Assembly (NCBI RefSeq): GCF_900110895.1 | Contig: NZ_FOIQ01000007.1 | Location: 1-64,000 of the forward strand | DNA: 64,000 nt | Direction: 5' to 3' | From: Prevotella aff. ruminicola Tc2-24 | Lineage (GTDB): Bacteria > Bacteroidota > Bacteroidia > Bacteroidales > Bacteroidaceae | Part shown: positions 51,729 through 61,393 of the stretch, piece by piece | How positions within the stretch are numbered: the stretch's first letter is position 1 | Layout: each line of letters begins with the position of its first letter | Notes under the pieces: generated by a model | Seen by the model: only the letters and a program-made list of their open reading frames with translations | Databases searched by the model: none | What the model was told of the DNA's origin: nothing | Translations under genes and position numbers: made by a program

Positions 51729-51754
51729 TCGTACGATGGTAACATCTGATAATC

Positions 51755-51785
51755 AAGGGTAGTCCTTCATGGGCTACCCTTTTTC
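51755..51785 (+). terminator. Terminator after ackA
   Basis: AAGGGTAG pairs with CTACCCTT around an 11-nt loop and is followed by TTTTC. It closes the folP-cdaA-pta-ackA run. Confidence 0.85.
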
Positions 51786-51868
51786 TGTGTCTGAGCAGAC
51801 AGGGATATGTATTTGTCAGTTTCTTATAAAAAAATTACAAAAAATGCAAGAAGTAACAAAAAAAAGAT

Positions 51869-51877
51869 TAATTTTGC
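51869..51877 (+). promoter_or_regulatory. -7 box (TAATTTTGC) of the CotH pair
   Basis: TAATTTTGC lies about 100 nt before the ATG at 51977. The intervening leader carries an in-frame upstream ATG (51920) with no conserved sequence. Confidence 0.55.
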
Positions 51878-51976
51878 ATCGCACTATGGACTTTGCCGAT
51901 TACTAACACTTGTGGAACGATGGAGTCTGTTGTGGTAGTACGTAAATATGTTTATGGTCAAATATTAGGATTAGAA

Positions 51977-53701
51977 ATGAAGAAGTTTGTTTTTTTCTGT
52001 ATGGCGTTACTTTGCTTCTCAGCATGTAAGACGGATCTTTCAGAGATTGAGGAGCGAATTGATGAGATAGAAAGACAAGGCAAGAATCTTGAGCAGCAGG
52101 GTAAGAACCTTGAGCAACAGGGAAAGGATCTTGAGAACAAAAGTAAGGATCTTGAGCAACAGGGTCAGGACTTGGCTGGTGAAACAGAGAGGCTGCAGAA
52201 TGATTTGGACAATACCCAGAACCGGATAGACGAGATAGAGAAGGAGATGAATAAGGTAGAGCCGAAGTTGCTCTCTATGGAATTCCTGGCTTCTGAGAAT
52301 CCGCTCCTACTCGTGGAGAATACACGGTGCGATATCAGTGCCGATGGTATTGTGGAGTGCTGGGTCGTCAATATTATGAGTTCCAAAAAACTTATTCCTC
52401 ATTTCACTTATCAGGGAGAGAACGTCACGATTGGTGGCAAGGCTGTTGAGAGTGGCGTCACGGAGGTTGACTTCAGTCAGCCTGTCGTCATGACCATCAC
52501 TTCATCTGACAAGACGAAGGATTATACTATTAATGTCCACTCGTACACAGGTCTGCCTATCCTTTGGATTGAGACCATGAACAGAAGTCAGGTCTCTGTT
52601 GTCGAGAGATTCTATAATGCCCAGTTCAAGCTGGCAGAGAACGTGACAACCCGTTCTTCCGGAAGTGTAATTGAGGCAAGTGGAAAGATTAAAGGTATTG
52701 GCTCAACACAGTGGTGGAAACCTAACCTGACGGGCAAGACATACACGGAACTATGGAAGAATACTTACGAACTCCAGTTCAATGGTGTCATCTCGGTACT
52801 GGACGAGGCGAAGAATAAGGCTTGGGCACTTATTCCTAATGCCGATGATATCACGATGCTTCGTAATCAGACCGCCTATGCTATGGGAAAGATCAGTAAG
52901 TTGGCGTTTACACCGCGTTTCCATTATGTCGATGTCATGATGAATGGGGTTTACTTTGGTACCTATATGATTGGTGATAAGATTGAGGTGGGGGCCGACA
53001 GAGTCAATATTAGTAAAGACGGCTTTATCCTGAAGATTGACGCAAAGACCTCTGGTACGAACTTCAGTGCACAGACCATCGAGAAACCGCTGAGCATCAT
53101 TGCTCCGAGCGTGAGCTCTGGGGATGCGAACTATAAATATATCAAGAATTTCATTACGACAGCGGAAGATGCTCTCTTCTCGGAGGATTTCACCAATACC
53201 TCTACCGGATGGCAGAAATATCTTGATATGGACTCTTTCGTTGACTGGTATCTGATCAATGAGATTGCCAAGAACTCAAACGGCGCCTTTGCTGCCGACT
53301 GCTATATGACTCTTGAGCGGGATGGTAAATTAAAGATGGGTCCGATATGGAACTTTGAGAATGCTTTCGGAAATGTGAAGAATACCAGTTCGAATGGCTT
53401 TGTCGTAAAGAACTCAAACTGGTATGCTCGTCTGTTCAAGGATCCAGCATTCGTGACTAAAGTGAAGGAACGCTTCAACTATTTCTATAAGCAGCGTAAC
53501 ACGATTCTGTCGGAGATTAATTCCAACGCCCAGTATCTGCGCTATTCTGTACGAGAGAACTCCAACAAATGGGAGGTGTTCGACTCTTATAAGTCGTATA
53601 GCTCCGATGTCTCAGTGATGTATCAGAATGCCGTGGGATCTATGAAGTCATGGCTGGATAAACGGATGACATGGCTGAAAGGTGAGTTTGATAAGATGTA
53701 A
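51977..53701 (+). CDS. CotH-like lipoprotein 1 (probable pseudokinase) with coiled-coil stalk
   Basis: The 574-residue protein has a lipoprotein signal (MKKFVFFCMALLCFSAC, Cys17), a coiled coil of exact heptads (K(N/D)LEQQG units, about residues 35-65), an Ig-like beta domain (about 92-190) and a CotH domain (195-574). Real CotH kinases have a GRGNSTW segment, a KKPYRLKF lysine and a WDFD metal site. Here these read GIGSTQW, NTYELQF and WNFE (Trp458-Glu461), so the catalytic residues look lost. It may be a substrate-binding or regulatory partner of copy 2. I start at MKKF, where the signal begins. The next gene starts 45 bp later. Confidence 0.85.
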   Translation: MKKFVFFCMALLCFSACKTDLSEIEERIDEIERQGKNLEQQGKNLEQQGKDLENKSKDLEQQGQDLAGETERLQNDLDNTQNRIDEIEKEMNKVEPKLLSMEFLASENPLLLVENTRCDISADGIVECWVVNIMSSKKLIPHFTYQGENVTIGGKAVESGVTEVDFSQPVVMTITSSDKTKDYTINVHSYTGLPILWIETMNRSQVSVVERFYNAQFKLAENVTTRSSGSVIEASGKIKGIGSTQWWKPNLTGKTYTELWKNTYELQFNGVISVLDEAKNKAWALIPNADDITMLRNQTAYAMGKISKLAFTPRFHYVDVMMNGVYFGTYMIGDKIEVGADRVNISKDGFILKIDAKTSGTNFSAQTIEKPLSIIAPSVSSGDANYKYIKNFITTAEDALFSEDFTNTSTGWQKYLDMDSFVDWYLINEIAKNSNGAFAADCYMTLERDGKLKMGPIWNFENAFGNVKNTSSNGFVVKNSNWYARLFKDPAFVTKVKERFNYFYKQRNTILSEINSNAQYLRYSVRENSNKWEVFDSYKSYSSDVSVMYQNAVGSMKSWLDKRMTWLKGEFDKM

Positions 53702-53746
53702 GGCTTTGGCCGACGGATATTGGTGATGTTTATCTAATTCAAGAAG

Positions 53747-55483
53747 ATGAGAAAGATCGTATTCTTTGCTATCATAGTCCTATGCCTCACTAGCTGTAAG
53801 GAAGACCTGTCGGATTACTTCGAGAGGATGGATCTTCGCGAGGAGGCCAACAAGAGACAGAAGGAACGTAATGAGCAACAGGCGAAGCGGAACGAAGAGC
53901 AGGCCAAGTGGAACGAGGAACAGGCTCAACGGAATGCCGACCAGGCAGCGCTGAACAGAGGCCTGCGCCTTCAATGGGAGGAGTTGGCCAAGAAGCTTGA
54001 CAGTCTTGAGGCTGTCCGGGCTGTTGTGCCACCAGTTGAGCCGAAGTTGTTGTCCGTCACTTTTGCTAAGGCGGAGAACCCGAAGTTGAGTGCGGACATC
54101 AAATGTGAGATTGTCGATGATAATACGATAGAGTGCTGGTTGCCGGGCATCGTTACCGAGAAACAACTCATCCCGCAGTTCACTTTCGACGGTACCATGG
54201 TCACCATCGATGGTATTGAGGCTGTCAGTGGAGAGACGAAGTTCAACTTCAAAAAACCGTTAAAGGTGACGGTCATGACCTCGGACAAGATGGTTCACTA
54301 CTTGATGTATGTCCATTCCTATACGGGCTTACCGATTCTCTACATCAATACGGCAGGTCAGCAGGAAGTTACATCCAAGGAGTATTATATTGATGCTTCG
54401 GTCAAGTTGGTGGAGGATGTACGGACGAGAAGTGCCGGTGATGTGACCGAGGCTGTCGGTCATATCAAGGGCCGTGGTAACTCGACATGGGGCCTTCCCA
54501 AGAAACCATATAGACTGAAGTTCGACGAGAAAGTGTCTTTCCTCGGAGAACATAAAGACAAGTCATGGGTGCTGATTCCTAACTGGACGGACAAGAGTAT
54601 GCTTCGCAATGCGTTGTCTTTCTATCTGGGTAAGATGAGTAATATGGACTGGACCCCTTGTTATCATTTCGTAGAGGTGATCTTCAACGGTCGTTATGAC
54701 GGTACTTATCTGTTGACAGAGAAAGTGAAAGTCTCCAATCACCGGGTGGCCGTCGGTGACGACGGGTTCTTGCTCGAATGCAACAACTGGGCCGACCGTG
54801 AGGACGACGCGACATATTTCCATACGACCTATGTCGATCCGGCTATCGTAATCAAAGAGCCTGAGGATGTGCAGTATGATGATGCTAATTACACGTATAT
54901 CGTGAATTATATGTCAACGCTTGAGCGTACCCTGTTCTCCTCCAGCTTTACGAATCCTTCCACTGGATGGCAGAAGTATATGGATATGGATTCTTTCGTT
55001 GACTGGTATCTCATCCATGAGATTGCCAAGAATGTTGACTGTATGTTCAACTTCAGTACATTCATGCATCTGGAGAGAGGAGGAAAACTGAAGATGGGAC
55101 CACTCTGGGACTTTGATATCGCATACGGTAACCTTAAGGAAAGTGGCTCTAGTTATCTGAAATGGATCTCCCCACAGGGGAATCTCCTCACGCAGACGAA
55201 GTGGTACAGTCGTTTGATGAAGGATCCTGCCTTTGTTGCGAGACTGAAAGAACGGTTCGACTTCTTCTATAAGCATAGAAACGACGTGTTTATGTTCTTG
55301 AATGATTATGCCGATTATCTCCGTTATTCTGTCATAGAGAATGAGGATCGTTGGGGCACCTTATATCATTATACTTATAAGAATGCCGATATCTGGGGAT
55401 CCTACAAGAATGAGGTGCAGGATCTGAAGGAGTGGCTGAACACGCGTTTCGAATGGATGAAGTCCGAGTACGATAAGCTATAA
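53747..55483 (+). CDS. CotH-like lipoprotein 2 (probable kinase) with coiled-coil stalk
   Basis: The 578-residue protein has a lipoprotein signal (MRKIVFFAIIVLCLTSC), a different heptad stalk (NEQQAKR, NEEQAKW, NEEQAQR; about residues 40-72), an Ig-like domain and a CotH domain. The hallmarks are intact: GRGNSTW (242-248) followed by LPKKPYRLKF, and LWDFD (453-457). CotH proteins are secreted atypical kinases that phosphorylate protein substrates. It is the paralogue of the gene upstream, sharing the SYTGLPIL and STGWQKYMDMDSFVDWYL blocks. The last six bases overlap the convergent sugar kinase gene. Confidence 0.87.
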   Translation: MRKIVFFAIIVLCLTSCKEDLSDYFERMDLREEANKRQKERNEQQAKRNEEQAKWNEEQAQRNADQAALNRGLRLQWEELAKKLDSLEAVRAVVPPVEPKLLSVTFAKAENPKLSADIKCEIVDDNTIECWLPGIVTEKQLIPQFTFDGTMVTIDGIEAVSGETKFNFKKPLKVTVMTSDKMVHYLMYVHSYTGLPILYINTAGQQEVTSKEYYIDASVKLVEDVRTRSAGDVTEAVGHIKGRGNSTWGLPKKPYRLKFDEKVSFLGEHKDKSWVLIPNWTDKSMLRNALSFYLGKMSNMDWTPCYHFVEVIFNGRYDGTYLLTEKVKVSNHRVAVGDDGFLLECNNWADREDDATYFHTTYVDPAIVIKEPEDVQYDDANYTYIVNYMSTLERTLFSSSFTNPSTGWQKYMDMDSFVDWYLIHEIAKNVDCMFNFSTFMHLERGGKLKMGPLWDFDIAYGNLKESGSSYLKWISPQGNLLTQTKWYSRLMKDPAFVARLKERFDFFYKHRNDVFMFLNDYADYLRYSVIENEDRWGTLYHYTYKNADIWGSYKNEVQDLKEWLNTRFEWMKSEYDKL

Positions 55484-57752: not shown

Positions 57753-58253
57753 ATGATCGACAAGCGAGAATTCGAAATGGTTTTCAGATGTCATTATGAC
57801 GGGATGTTCCGACTGGCACTAAGGATGTTAGGCGATGAGGCTGAAAGCAAGGATATTGTGAGCGACGTGTTCGCCCAACTGCTCCATCGCGGCACAGATC
57901 TCAAGTCGGACACTCTTCGGGCCTATCTGTTGACAAGCGTACGTAACCGCTGTATCAATCTGTTGGTGCACAAACAGAAAGAACAGCAGATGCAGAAGGC
58001 CGTCGTTGTAGAGATGATCACCCCAGAAAAGACCGTTGAACAGGAACAACTGCAGATGCTATACCACTACATCGACACGCAGTTTCCCAAACTCTCGCAG
58101 CAGATACTTCGTCTGCGCTACCAGCAAGGCTTGAAGTACCGCGAGATTGCCAAGGTGCTGCAGGTCAGCGAGGTCACCGTCCATAAACATCTGTCGCAGT
58201 CGCTGAAACAATTAAAGGATTATTTTAAATCATCGGATTATGGAATCAAATGA
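57753..58253 (+). CDS. ECF RNA polymerase sigma factor
   Basis: This 166-residue sigma-70 family protein has region 2 (YDGMFRLALRMLGDEAESKD, DIVSDVFAQLL) and region 4 (LRLRYQQGLKYREIAKVLQV with the helix-turn-helix VSEVTVHKHLSQSLKQLK). It is of the Bacteroidota FecI-like group. The stop overlaps the next gene by 14 nt. The set sigma / anti-sigma / TonB receptor is the classic surface-signalling relay. Confidence 0.93.
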   Translation: MIDKREFEMVFRCHYDGMFRLALRMLGDEAESKDIVSDVFAQLLHRGTDLKSDTLRAYLLTSVRNRCINLLVHKQKEQQMQKAVVVEMITPEKTVEQEQLQMLYHYIDTQFPKLSQQILRLRYQQGLKYREIAKVLQVSEVTVHKHLSQSLKQLKDYFKSSDYGIK

Positions 58254-58806
58254 CAAACTGGAAAAGCTCCTCAGGCAGATGTATACCCTAGAGTCCCTCC
58301 ACGATAACGATATAGATACATCGGACATTGTCGACGAGGCGTGGACGAAGTTTGAGGCAGAACACTTTGGAGGTGGAAAGCGAAGCGTGAAAACTGAAAG
58401 TTTTTCGTTTCTCAAGATAGCTGCAATATTTGTTGGAGTACTACTGCTCTCTGGTATCACCTATGCTGCTGTGCAGATGATAAATAGCAGTTCACAGAAG
58501 TTACAGAAAGAACAGGTCGTGGCGACAGTAAATACAGAACACTCAGCTGGCAATGCCCAACTGACAGAGCAGGATAGTACTCTGCACAAACCCATCGTCT
58601 ACGAAGATGCAGAATTGGCAACCATCCTGAAAGATATGGCATCTTACTATCAGGTTGAACTCATCTATAAGAATGAGGCCAGCAAGCATATCCGTCTCTA
58701 TTTCACATGGGACCAAAAACAGACGATAGACGATCTTGTCGATACGTTTAACAAGTTTGAGCGCATCCAGATTGTTTACGAGAACAAGAAATTGATTGTA
58801 GAATAA
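58240..58806 (+). CDS. FecR-like anti-sigma protein lacking the FecR domain
   Basis: This 188-residue protein has a cytoplasmic N-terminus (about 1-56), one helix (FLKIAAIFVGVLLLSGITYA) and a periplasmic part. That part ends in a DUF4974/STN-like domain (IVYEDAELATILKDMASYYQ, TIDDLVDTFNKFERIQIVYE). Full FecR-type regulators have a middle FecR domain and are over 300 residues; this one is short. It should hold the sigma factor and release it on a signal from the receptor. It overlaps sigma by 14 nt. Confidence 0.85.
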   Translation: MESNDKLEKLLRQMYTLESLHDNDIDTSDIVDEAWTKFEAEHFGGGKRSVKTESFSFLKIAAIFVGVLLLSGITYAAVQMINSSSQKLQKEQVVATVNTEHSAGNAQLTEQDSTLHKPIVYEDAELATILKDMASYYQVELIYKNEASKHIRLYFTWDQKQTIDDLVDTFNKFERIQIVYENKKLIVE

Positions 58807-58822
58807 CTTGAATCAACACAAA

Positions 58823-61393
58823 ATGAAACATTATATATTCACAGTGCTGCTCTGTGGCTTGACGTTGTGTGCTCAGGCACAGAGGATTAGCCGCCATTAC
58901 CAAAACGAGTCACTGTCAAAGGTCCTTGAGGACTTGAACACAGTCACCAGCGATAAGACCATCTATTTCATCTATGATGAACTGGAAGACTTCACAGTTA
59001 CCAGTCATTTCAGCGATCTTCCCATCAAAGAGGCCATCCGCGAGGTCGTTGGTTTCTATCCGATGAAGGTGACATATGAAGGTGACAAGATCTTCATAGA
59101 ATGCACCCAAAAGGAAGATACCAAGGTGATAGGCCATATCGTGGACGAAAACGGACAACCCGTAGAATTCGCCAATATCTCATTGCACAACGCCATAGAA
59201 ATTCAAAACAATGATCAAAATTCCACATATATTAACGGAGGCGTGAGCAATGAGAATGGCGATTTCGTAATACCCTGTAAGGCCCAGCGCATCACACTGA
59301 GAGTGTCGTATGTCGGCTATAAGACCGTTACCCGAAACGTCAGCGTGGGCAACATCGGCACCATCACCCTCCAGCCTGAGACCTATATGGTGAAAGGTGT
59401 TGAGATTAAAGGCGAGAGACCTCAATACAAACCAACAACGGGTGGCGTAAGCGTCGATGTGCAACATTCGCTGCTCCATGACATTGGCAATGCCGACGAT
59501 CTGTTGTCGATAATCCCGATGGTGCAGGGCAAGGATGGTAAGTTTGAGGTGCTGGCCAAAGGTGAACCCGAGATCTACATCAATAATAAGAAGGTGCGTG
59601 ATATGGGTGACCTGAAACAACTGAAATCGACAGACGTCAAGAGCGTGGATGTGATTACTGCCCCTGGTGCGAAATACAATGCCGAGGTGAATGCCGTGAT
59701 TCTTATCAAGACCTTGAAGCCTCAGGGCGATGGATTCAGTCTGATGGCCACCAGTCAGACTTGGAAAAACAACAAGTGGAACACCTACGACGACTTGACG
59801 CTGAAATATCGCACTGGCGGTCTGGAGGCTTTTGCCAACGTTGCGCTCGATAACGGTCACTATAGCAATGATCAGGATATCGATCAAGAACTGCATATCA
59901 GCAAGGACTTGTTTAGCGGCAGTGCAGAATTACCTGTTAGGAGTTCGTGGACGGAGATTCAGTATCAGGCAGGTCTGAGTTACGACTTCAGCTCAGATCA
60001 TTCTATAGGTCTGAGTTTCTCTTCGCAAAAGAACCTCCATAGTTGTTTCAAGTCGGATATGAAACAGTACTACATGAAGAACGGAACCTTTGATGGTAAT
60101 GTCTATCTGACAACAGATATCCGCGAGAAAGACAAGCCCGTATGGGAACTGAACACCTACTATGTAGGTAAGATAGGGCAACTGGGTATTGATCTGAACG
60201 CTACCATATTACGACGTGAATCAGAGGAAAATAACAATCAGTATGAGACAAGTCAGGAATATGGCAACCGCACCATCACCACGCTGACCAATGAAGACCG
60301 TAAGATGGTAGCAGGCAAACTGGTGCTGACCTATCCCGTCTGGAAAGGTGAGTTAAGTGCTGGATCAGAGGCGACGAGCACGAAGAGCCGTGGTGGTAAC
60401 TTTAATCTGGAGAATATCATCCCAGAGTCGGACACCGAGATGGAAGAAAAGAATATCGCCGGCTTTGCTGAGTATGAGTTACAACTAGGCCTGTGGCACC
60501 TAAATGCTGGTCTGCGCTATGAGCACGTCGCTGCGGACTACACCTCGTTTGGCGTCTGGCAGGAGGAGCCCAGCCGTACTTATAACGACTGGTTCCCCAA
60601 TGTCTCAGCAGCCTGGCAAAAGGGCAAATGGGGTGCTCAACTGAGTTACAACAAGCGCATCACCCGTCCGCCATACAGCATGTTGACCTCTATGGTCATA
60701 TACGACAGTCGAATCCTATACGAAGGCGGTAACCCATTGTTGCGTCCCTCGGTAAGGCAGAGCATCGATTTCAACCTCACCTATTCATGGCTGAACTTTG
60801 TCACTGGCTTTACTCGTGAGAACGACTTCTTTACCCATGTTGGTCAGGTGTACGATGAAGTGCAGGAGATTGCCATCCTCCGTCCAGATAACTTCGACCA
60901 TCAGGATCGCGTCTATGCCACACTCGTCGCATCACCCAAATTCGGATTCTGGCAGCCGCAGGCTACGCTGCACTATTATCAGCAGATGTTCGATGCAGAG
61001 AGATATGGTGCGCCAAAGAAACTGAATAAGCCTGAGTTCAGTTTTAATCTGAATAGCTGGTTTGAGATCAATCCGACGGCTAAGGCCCTGGTACAGGTGA
61101 ACTATTCTGGCGCCAACCACTGGGGATTCATGTATCGTGGTGACAAATTCCAGGTGAATGCCCGATTGCAGAAGTCATTCCTGAAAGGGCGCCTGGCAGC
61201 TACCCTGTATGCCAACGATATTTTCCATACGGCTAAGAACAAGACGACAACTTACTATGCCATCGGAAAGACAGCACAGGATTACTACAGTTACACGCAA
61301 AGCGTGGGACTCACCCTGAGCTATAACTTCAATGTCGCAGGCTCGAAGTATCGTGGTACAGGTGCTGGTAACGACGAAAGGAACCGTCTCTGA
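58823..61393 (+). CDS. TonB-dependent receptor with STN signalling domain
   Basis: This 856-residue receptor has a signal peptide (MKHYIFTVLLCGLTLCAQAQ). An N-terminal STN/secretin domain (about 22-95; LSKVLEDLNTVTSDKTIYFI) contacts the anti-sigma protein. A carboxypeptidase-regulatory-like domain (about 100-195; GHIVDENGQPVEFANISLHN), a plug (DDLLSIIPMVQGKDGKFEVL) and a beta barrel follow. A TTG at 58808 opens the longer frame, but the ATG at 58823 begins the signal, so I use it. There is no SusD partner, so ligand is likely small or unknown. Confidence 0.9.
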   Translation: MKHYIFTVLLCGLTLCAQAQRISRHYQNESLSKVLEDLNTVTSDKTIYFIYDELEDFTVTSHFSDLPIKEAIREVVGFYPMKVTYEGDKIFIECTQKEDTKVIGHIVDENGQPVEFANISLHNAIEIQNNDQNSTYINGGVSNENGDFVIPCKAQRITLRVSYVGYKTVTRNVSVGNIGTITLQPETYMVKGVEIKGERPQYKPTTGGVSVDVQHSLLHDIGNADDLLSIIPMVQGKDGKFEVLAKGEPEIYINNKKVRDMGDLKQLKSTDVKSVDVITAPGAKYNAEVNAVILIKTLKPQGDGFSLMATSQTWKNNKWNTYDDLTLKYRTGGLEAFANVALDNGHYSNDQDIDQELHISKDLFSGSAELPVRSSWTEIQYQAGLSYDFSSDHSIGLSFSSQKNLHSCFKSDMKQYYMKNGTFDGNVYLTTDIREKDKPVWELNTYYVGKIGQLGIDLNATILRRESEENNNQYETSQEYGNRTITTLTNEDRKMVAGKLVLTYPVWKGELSAGSEATSTKSRGGNFNLENIIPESDTEMEEKNIAGFAEYELQLGLWHLNAGLRYEHVAADYTSFGVWQEEPSRTYNDWFPNVSAAWQKGKWGAQLSYNKRITRPPYSMLTSMVIYDSRILYEGGNPLLRPSVRQSIDFNLTYSWLNFVTGFTRENDFFTHVGQVYDEVQEIAILRPDNFDHQDRVYATLVASPKFGFWQPQATLHYYQQMFDAERYGAPKKLNKPEFSFNLNSWFEINPTAKALVQVNYSGANHWGFMYRGDKFQVNARLQKSFLKGRLAATLYANDIFHTAKNKTTTYYAIGKTAQDYYSYTQSVGLTLSYNFNVAGSKYRGTGAGNDERNRL

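Follow-up and report, generated by a model that had tools for sequence, protein, structure and literature searches.

Tandem CotH lipoproteins of Prevotella: a predicted kinase and pseudokinase pair with length-matched stalks

In this work we looked at a stretch of 64,000 nucleotides from Prevotella aff. ruminicola Tc2-24 (contig NZ_FOIQ01000007.1, positions 1 to 64,000; hereafter the window), in which two CotH-type lipoprotein genes lie head to tail on the + strand, 45 bp apart. The upstream gene, copy 1 (51977..53701), encodes a 574 amino acid CotH-fold lipoprotein that is predicted to be a pseudokinase from its open reading frame (ORF), Pfam match, AlphaFold2 model and matches in the Protein Data Bank (PDB). 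The downstream gene, copy 2 (53747..55483), encodes a 578 amino acid CotH lipoprotein that is predicted, from its ORF, its Pfam match and a complete catalytic set, to be an active kinase. It is likely, in our judgement, that these tandem genes encode two subunits of one envelope-anchored kinase/pseudokinase complex. A tandem of CotH lipoproteins had been proposed here in an earlier reading of the DNA (the original prediction), and both ORFs were located; against a gathering cut-off of 23.8 bits for Pfam CotH (PF08757), copy 1 scores 98.8 bits (E 5.8e-28) and copy 2 scores 149 bits (E 3.1e-43). We refer to proteins of the copy 1 type, encoded upstream, as UP and to proteins of the copy 2 type, encoded downstream, as DN; all coordinates given below for the window are on the + strand.

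The distribution of the two types was surveyed by protein and profile searches of whole genomes and by one contig scan, which used sequence patterns and was not exhaustive; profiles of UP and of DN then served to classify the proteins. The survey yielded 21 tandem pairs and three single-polypeptide fusions, all of them in Prevotella or Prevotellaceae-type genomes except for one metagenome-assembled genome labelled only as Bacteroidales. All 24 UP-type proteins adjoin (21) or are fused to (3) a DN-type kinase, the order is UP then DN in every case, and the coding gaps range from -4 to 45 bp. In a genus sample of 398 genomes UP was found in 8, each time adjoining DN, and a family draw of 399 genomes (E <= 1e-90) gave no UP outside the genus, only intact solo kinases. 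Two of the pairs are found in isolates, Prevotella sp. ne3005 and Prevotella sp. khp7, so the pairs are not a metagenome artefact. That the two types always co-occur in a fixed order, as the original prediction implied, is borne out by these data, and among the surveyed genomes neither UP without DN nor DN of the paired clade without UP was found. The expectation that neither type stands alone holds for these, but not for the wider set of intact-motif relatives of copy 2; such relatives do occur alone, on branches outside the paired DN clade and without its long matched stalk. Some irregular arrangements were also seen. The DN gene at L060:2681-4361, in a metagenome genome, runs in two overlapping frames, which can be an assembly error or a real frameshift. 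At loci L109, L125 and L126, CotH genes cluster in twos or threes with members on opposite strands, and the genome of the window itself has a third CotH-domain protein outside the pair (G000:C5:133348-134286, locus L003/L047), within a 794-residue open frame.

The B. subtilis CotH kinase is inactivated by D228Q or D251A (PMC7821199). In an alignment with the B. cereus CotH structure 5jd9, copy 2 residues D431 and D455 fall on the aspartates of its NFD and WDYD motifs (D224 and D247 of its chain), which are 23 residues apart, as are D228 and D251. Copy 2 has both equivalents of the essential aspartates, D431 for D228 (55037..55039) and D455 for D251, the latter within WDFD (55106..55117), as well as the motifs GRGNSTW (54470..54490) and KKPYRLKF (54500..54523). 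At the same places copy 1 has GIGSTQW (52694..52714), KNTYELQF (52757..52780), N435 in place of D431 (53279..53281, from the mapping to 5jd9) and WNFE in place of WDFD (53348..53359), with N459 for D455 and Glu for D457; the residues R243, N245, K253 and K258 are also lost. The motifs on which the original prediction was based (KGIGSTQW, KNTYELQF and WNFE in copy 1; KGRGNSTW, KKPYRLKF and WDFD in copy 2) were all found, and the loss of the NxD aspartate, D431 to N435, adds to them. The contrast that it drew between KKPYRLKF and NTYELQF stands in part: K253 is replaced by Asn in 24/24 UP and K258 is usually lost, but the first Lys (K252) is kept, both in copy 1, where it is K261, and throughout the 24 relatives.

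The full catalytic set of seven residues (R243, N245, K253, K258, D431, D455 and D457, in copy 2 numbering) is kept in 0/24 UP, in 23/23 DN and in 10/12 solo relatives, and the sole difference in the remaining two solo relatives is an Arg at K253. The degeneration is uneven across the UP orthologues, which have not all lost the same residues: position 431 can be D, N, K, R, S, E or G and position 455 can be D, K, G, R or N. K252, D282, N314, G319, E425 and N429 are invariant in UP, and the UP-specific conserved columns that were examined hold no new conserved acidic or metal-binding site. From its sequence and model, copy 1 has the features of a predicted pseudokinase, namely a kinase fold, lost catalytic residues and conservation in this form by selection, and copy 2 is apparently an active CotH-type kinase.

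Each protein has the same domain order: a signal peptide, a lipobox with Cys17, a charged heptad stalk, an Ig-like domain and a kinase-fold domain. In copy 1 the signal peptide ends in the lipobox CFSAC (51977..52027) and is followed by the coiled-coil stalk (52028..52252), in which position 'd' is mostly Leu and position 'a' is mostly Gly or Ser in the middle of the stalk, and by the Ig-like beta-sandwich (52256..52546). The AlphaFold2 model of copy 1 (mean pLDDT 88) assigns residues 22-92 to a single helix, 97-189 to the beta-sandwich and 195-573 to a full kinase fold. In copy 2 the lipobox is CLTSC, with KED directly after the Cys (53747..53797), and the stalk (53798..54037), which has Asn at 'a' in six successive layers and shares the heptad register of copy 1, precedes an Ig-like domain that was placed by alignment with copy 1 (54038..54319). 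The two proteins are thus built as the original prediction described them, as lipoproteins with an Ig-like domain and an N-terminal heptad stalk. By inspection, a lipobox-type Cys is present in 21/21 pairs; the LPAM_1 score of copy 2, 12.6 bits, is under the Pfam cut-off. The signal that directs Bacteroidota lipoproteins to the surface is K-(D/E)2 or S-D-D-D-D, placed right behind the Cys (PMC5080379); CKED in copy 2 matches the first of these and CKTD in copy 1 matches it in part. Based on the resemblance of CKED to this signal, the complex may face outward from the cell.

Strong PDB neighbours of the copy 1 model are limited to two structures of the B. cereus CotH kinase, 5jd9 (E 2.5e-12) and 5jda (E 4e-12), both with probability 1.00, and the model indicates that copy 1 retains the CotH kinase fold. 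The degenerate GRGNSTW block of copy 1 keeps its Pfam CotH match from starting before profile position 30. For copy 2, clear sequence homology points to the same fold. PDB sequence searches with copy 2 alone or with four DN sequences returned no CotH match, and a broader alignment led to 5jd9. In Pfam, CotH was returned, and no Fam20C match was found for copy 2 or among the families shown for copy 1. In a structure search of viral models, the copy 1 model is matched better (E down to 9e-28) by the predicted phage proteins A0A481VYZ0, A0A2D1GD28 and A0A515MGC7 than by the solved Bacillus CotH.

A maximum-likelihood tree of 65 Ig-plus-CotH regions places UP together with fused UP in one clade (100/99) and DN together with fused DN in another (100/100). 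Both clades are nested among solo kinases with intact motifs, and from this position in the tree UP descends from a kinase of the active type. The dN/dS values of close pairs are 0.05-0.11 for UP, near the 0.03-0.10 of DN, which by sequence places UP under purifying selection as a functional protein, and its reading frame is open in 24/24 genomes, the two isolates included. UP diverges faster, with a mean distance of 0.48 vs 0.40 for DN. The commonest site of the pairs is between ackA and a pfkB-family gene, and since the pair at L079 and the three fusions are located elsewhere, UP and DN have moved together.

Stalk length was measured from the Cys up to the LL that opens the Ig-like domain. 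In the window the stalks have 82 residues in copy 1 and 85 in copy 2; other UP/DN lengths are 59/63, 61/65, 62/64, 66/69, 74/76, 75/76, 75/78, 138/139, 145/146 and 159/160. Over the 21 pairs the two lengths are correlated with r = 0.9995, with a root-mean-square deviation of 1.3 residues over a range of 59-159. Independent contrasts on a tree of 20 pairs give r = 0.997 with a slope of 0.98, and raw contrasts with the largest dropped give r = 0.995. Length changes of more than ~2-3 residues are always matched in the partner stalk. Pairwise alignments show that they occur as whole heptads in UP and DN alike: +14/+14 from L061 to L072, +7/+7 from L071 to L061, 7/7 from L053 to L048, and 7/7 from L050 to the window, with 2 more residues near the end of the copy 2 stalk. 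In the two closest comparisons the UP and DN indel sites are separated by no more than ~12 stalk residues. There is no sequence relationship between UP stalks and DN stalks, and solo DN relatives have stalks of other lengths. Gene conversion was considered as a cause of the matched stalks and rejected, because the nucleotide identity of stalks within pairs (0.35-0.42) equals that across pairs (0.35-0.41).

The stalks share not only their length but also their register. Counted from the Cys, the UP heptad has 'a' at 11+7k and 'd' at 7+7k, and an Asn of DN coincides with a UP 'a' position in 68/114 layers at offset 0, vs 1-6/114 at offsets that are not a multiple of 7. Only at zero heptad shift do the layers with a hydrophobic 'a' residue line up between UP and DN (phi 0.58 vs <=0.12). 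In the window, six successive DN 'a' positions are Asn and face Gly, Gly, Gly, Ser, Gly and Thr of UP, and 'a' turns hydrophobic at the same layer in both stalks. Such a pattern would be expected from an in-register parallel hetero-coiled-coil, and together the sequence data strongly support an obligate complex of UP and DN of this kind. The matched stalks of the original prediction can be recognized here in the covariation of length by whole heptads and in the one common register.

Further evidence comes from natural fusions. The L067 fusion (L067:5905-8649) has 906 amino acids when read from its Met. It links a UP part, made of the Ig and kinase-like domains, to a DN kinase domain; both stalks are lost, and so is the DN Ig-like domain. 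The metagenome genome that carries it also has a normal tandem pair (L061). The other two fusions, L077 (4921-8073) and L081 (4858-8022), are from Prevotella metagenome genomes and are composed of an N-terminal type I dockerin (Dockerin_1, E 4.6e-12 and 1.7e-12), a shortened UP stalk, the UP domain, a shortened DN stalk and an intact DN kinase. In their UP part the catalytic block is deleted and ~80 residues of the C-lobe are gone. The dockerin hints at docking onto a cohesin-bearing surface structure. According to the tree, two separate fusion events are required, and L067 arose independently of the other two. A covalent link in place of the stalks would fit a role of the stalks in holding the partners together.

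A mechanism that fits these data is one in which copy 2 would be the catalytic subunit, a CotH-type protein kinase, and copy 1 a scaffold, a paralogue with the fold preserved but without the catalytic residues. Both would be exported as lipoproteins. Starting at the lipid anchor, their N-terminal helices would lie side by side in matching register and form a parallel hetero-coiled-coil; being paired, the helices could grow or shrink only together and by whole heptads. The stalk would fix the partner and keep both kinase-fold heads at an equal height above the membrane, and a further contact between copy 1 and copy 2 is probable at the head. The likeliest role of copy 1, if Fam20A is taken as a guide, is to activate copy 2 allosterically or to position its substrate. 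Stoichiometry, the choice of partner by the stalk and the ability or inability of copy 1 to bind ATP are parts of the model that we can only infer. The hetero-oligomeric kinase/pseudokinase with a matched stalk, as first proposed from the window alone, is supported by the co-occurrence, the gene order, the covariation and register of the stalks and the fusions, all of which are as it would predict.

Equal lengths would also be expected if the stalks did not pair with each other but formed homomeric coils, and co-varied through a shared need of both heads to reach one layer or one substrate above the membrane; the other stalk lengths of the solo DN relatives indicate that this length is adaptable. 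We consider this explanation unlikely. A matched reach does not predict a common register from the Cys, nor that the Asn layers of DN would meet the small or polar 'a' layers of UP; DN alone, with Asn at 'a' and Gln at 'd' in the window, looks like a poor homomeric core, and the viability of the stalk-less fusion L067 is left unexplained. It is more improbable still that copy 1 has another kinase-fold activity and acts in sequence with copy 2. Other pseudokinases have proved to be enzymes, for example SelO, which carries out AMPylation, and SidJ, which carries out glutamylation, both by means of a kinase fold, and such an activity would agree with the invariant UP positions and with the retention of both key aspartates in 6/24 UP. 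However, positions 431 and 455 vary widely among UP, the catalytic block of UP is deleted in L077 and L081, and no new acidic or metal-binding site appears in the conserved columns. Finally, the tandem arrangement of the paralogues and the faster divergence of UP could be read as a decaying duplicate that is held beside copy 2 by linkage, an option to which we give almost no weight: the dN/dS values refute it, as does the conservation of UP across a long divergence, and the open frames, the UP-specific invariant positions and the in-step changes of the stalks also speak against it.

Some points also weigh against the reading that we prefer, that of a paired kinase and pseudokinase. The structure modelling was of single chains, the complex itself is deduced from sequence, and the model of the L067 fusion is poor (pTM 0.44) and gives no interface information; its alignment left out the UP and full-length DN rows, which MAFFT had placed on the wrong half. 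UP members that keep both D431 and D455 could retain activity, and the kinase activity of Bacteroidota CotH proteins is itself extrapolated from Bacillus CotH. Part of the hydrophobic match at zero shift may come from conserved stalk ends. In addition, the pairs share ancestry and mostly one locus, so that 24 cases are not 24 independent events, with relocation of the unit in ~3 lineages. Among conserved neighbours, viewed as substrate candidates, only local chromosomal genes recur (ackA, pta-like, pfkB-family, LpxH-like and others), and this comparison yielded no partner substrate.

The closest known counterpart is found in animals, where Fam20A binds Fam20C and raises its activity allosterically in a heterodimer or heterotetramer (PMC7948968). 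Fam20C-type and CotH kinases belong to one clan and were clustered together in a published survey (PMC9758233). As proposed for UP/DN, a secreted catalytic kinase co-occurs with a catalytically dead paralogue; unlike UP/DN, which are tandem bacterial envelope lipoproteins, Fam20A and Fam20C are Golgi-resident, are encoded by unlinked genes and show no pairing of coiled-coil stalks. Inverted ATP binding was shown for Fam20A. The spore-coat kinase CotH (B. subtilis; B. cereus 5jd9/5jda; PMC7821199) shares the Pfam family and the fold, and its D228 and D251 have equivalents in copy 2, but in Bacillus it is a single spore-coat protein without a pseudokinase partner, lipoprotein anchor, stalk or Ig-like domain, and no counterpart of its substrates CotB and CotG was seen here. 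The stand-alone CotH lipoproteins of Bacteroidota (such as L059, L064, L070 and L075) are similar to the pair in their Ig-like and CotH domains, intact motifs and lipoprotein signal or N-terminus; they differ in having no pseudokinase neighbour, a short or unrelated N-terminal segment and a position outside the paired DN clade. In Toxoplasma, the secreted pseudokinase ROP5 is needed for the activity of the secreted kinase ROP18 (PMC3493473), as in the proposed pair, although these proteins are of an unrelated lineage and fold subfamily, have no stalks and are directed at the host.

CotH kinases, secreted pseudokinases and pseudokinase–kinase pairs are each already known separately. What is new is a tandem-encoded, lipid-anchored kinase–pseudokinase pair with length-matched stalks, and full-text searches of the open-licence literature found no description of a bacterial CotH pseudokinase partner. 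With some reserve, we lean towards the wider view of a surface kinase that is an obligate heteromer with its dead paralogue, in which stalks co-evolving by whole heptads act as a length-coded partner recognition, and which is a bacterial counterpart of Fam20A/Fam20C. Extracellular protein phosphorylation is almost unexplored in Gram-negative gut bacteria, and the pair occurs in some rumen-associated Prevotella. If the pair is indeed a complex, bacteria and animals would each have evolved, independently, a way to control secreted kinases by a dead partner. The in-step heptad changes can also serve as a rare natural experiment on the co-evolution of a heteromeric coiled coil, with 21 stalk pairs, a range of lengths and three fusions.

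Upstream of the pair, ~100 bases before copy 1, a pattern scan found the promoter-like octamer TAATTTTG of the Bacteroidota -7 type (51869..51876); it is weak evidence for a promoter, with 23 octamers of this type on the + strand of the whole window. The same scan found no -7 octamer in the gap between copy 1 and copy 2, which is consistent with a single two-gene operon. The interval between ackA and the pfkB-family gene (51729-55480 in the window) is variable: it contains the CotH pair at ~20 loci, while in genomes that lack the pair it contains other small lipoproteins (L171-L173) or is nearly empty (L174, G040), and it looks like a cargo site for small lipoproteins. Further downstream in the window (57753-61393), sigma-factor-like, anti-sigma-like and TonB-dependent-receptor-like genes form, as judged by eye only, a typical Bacteroidota trio.

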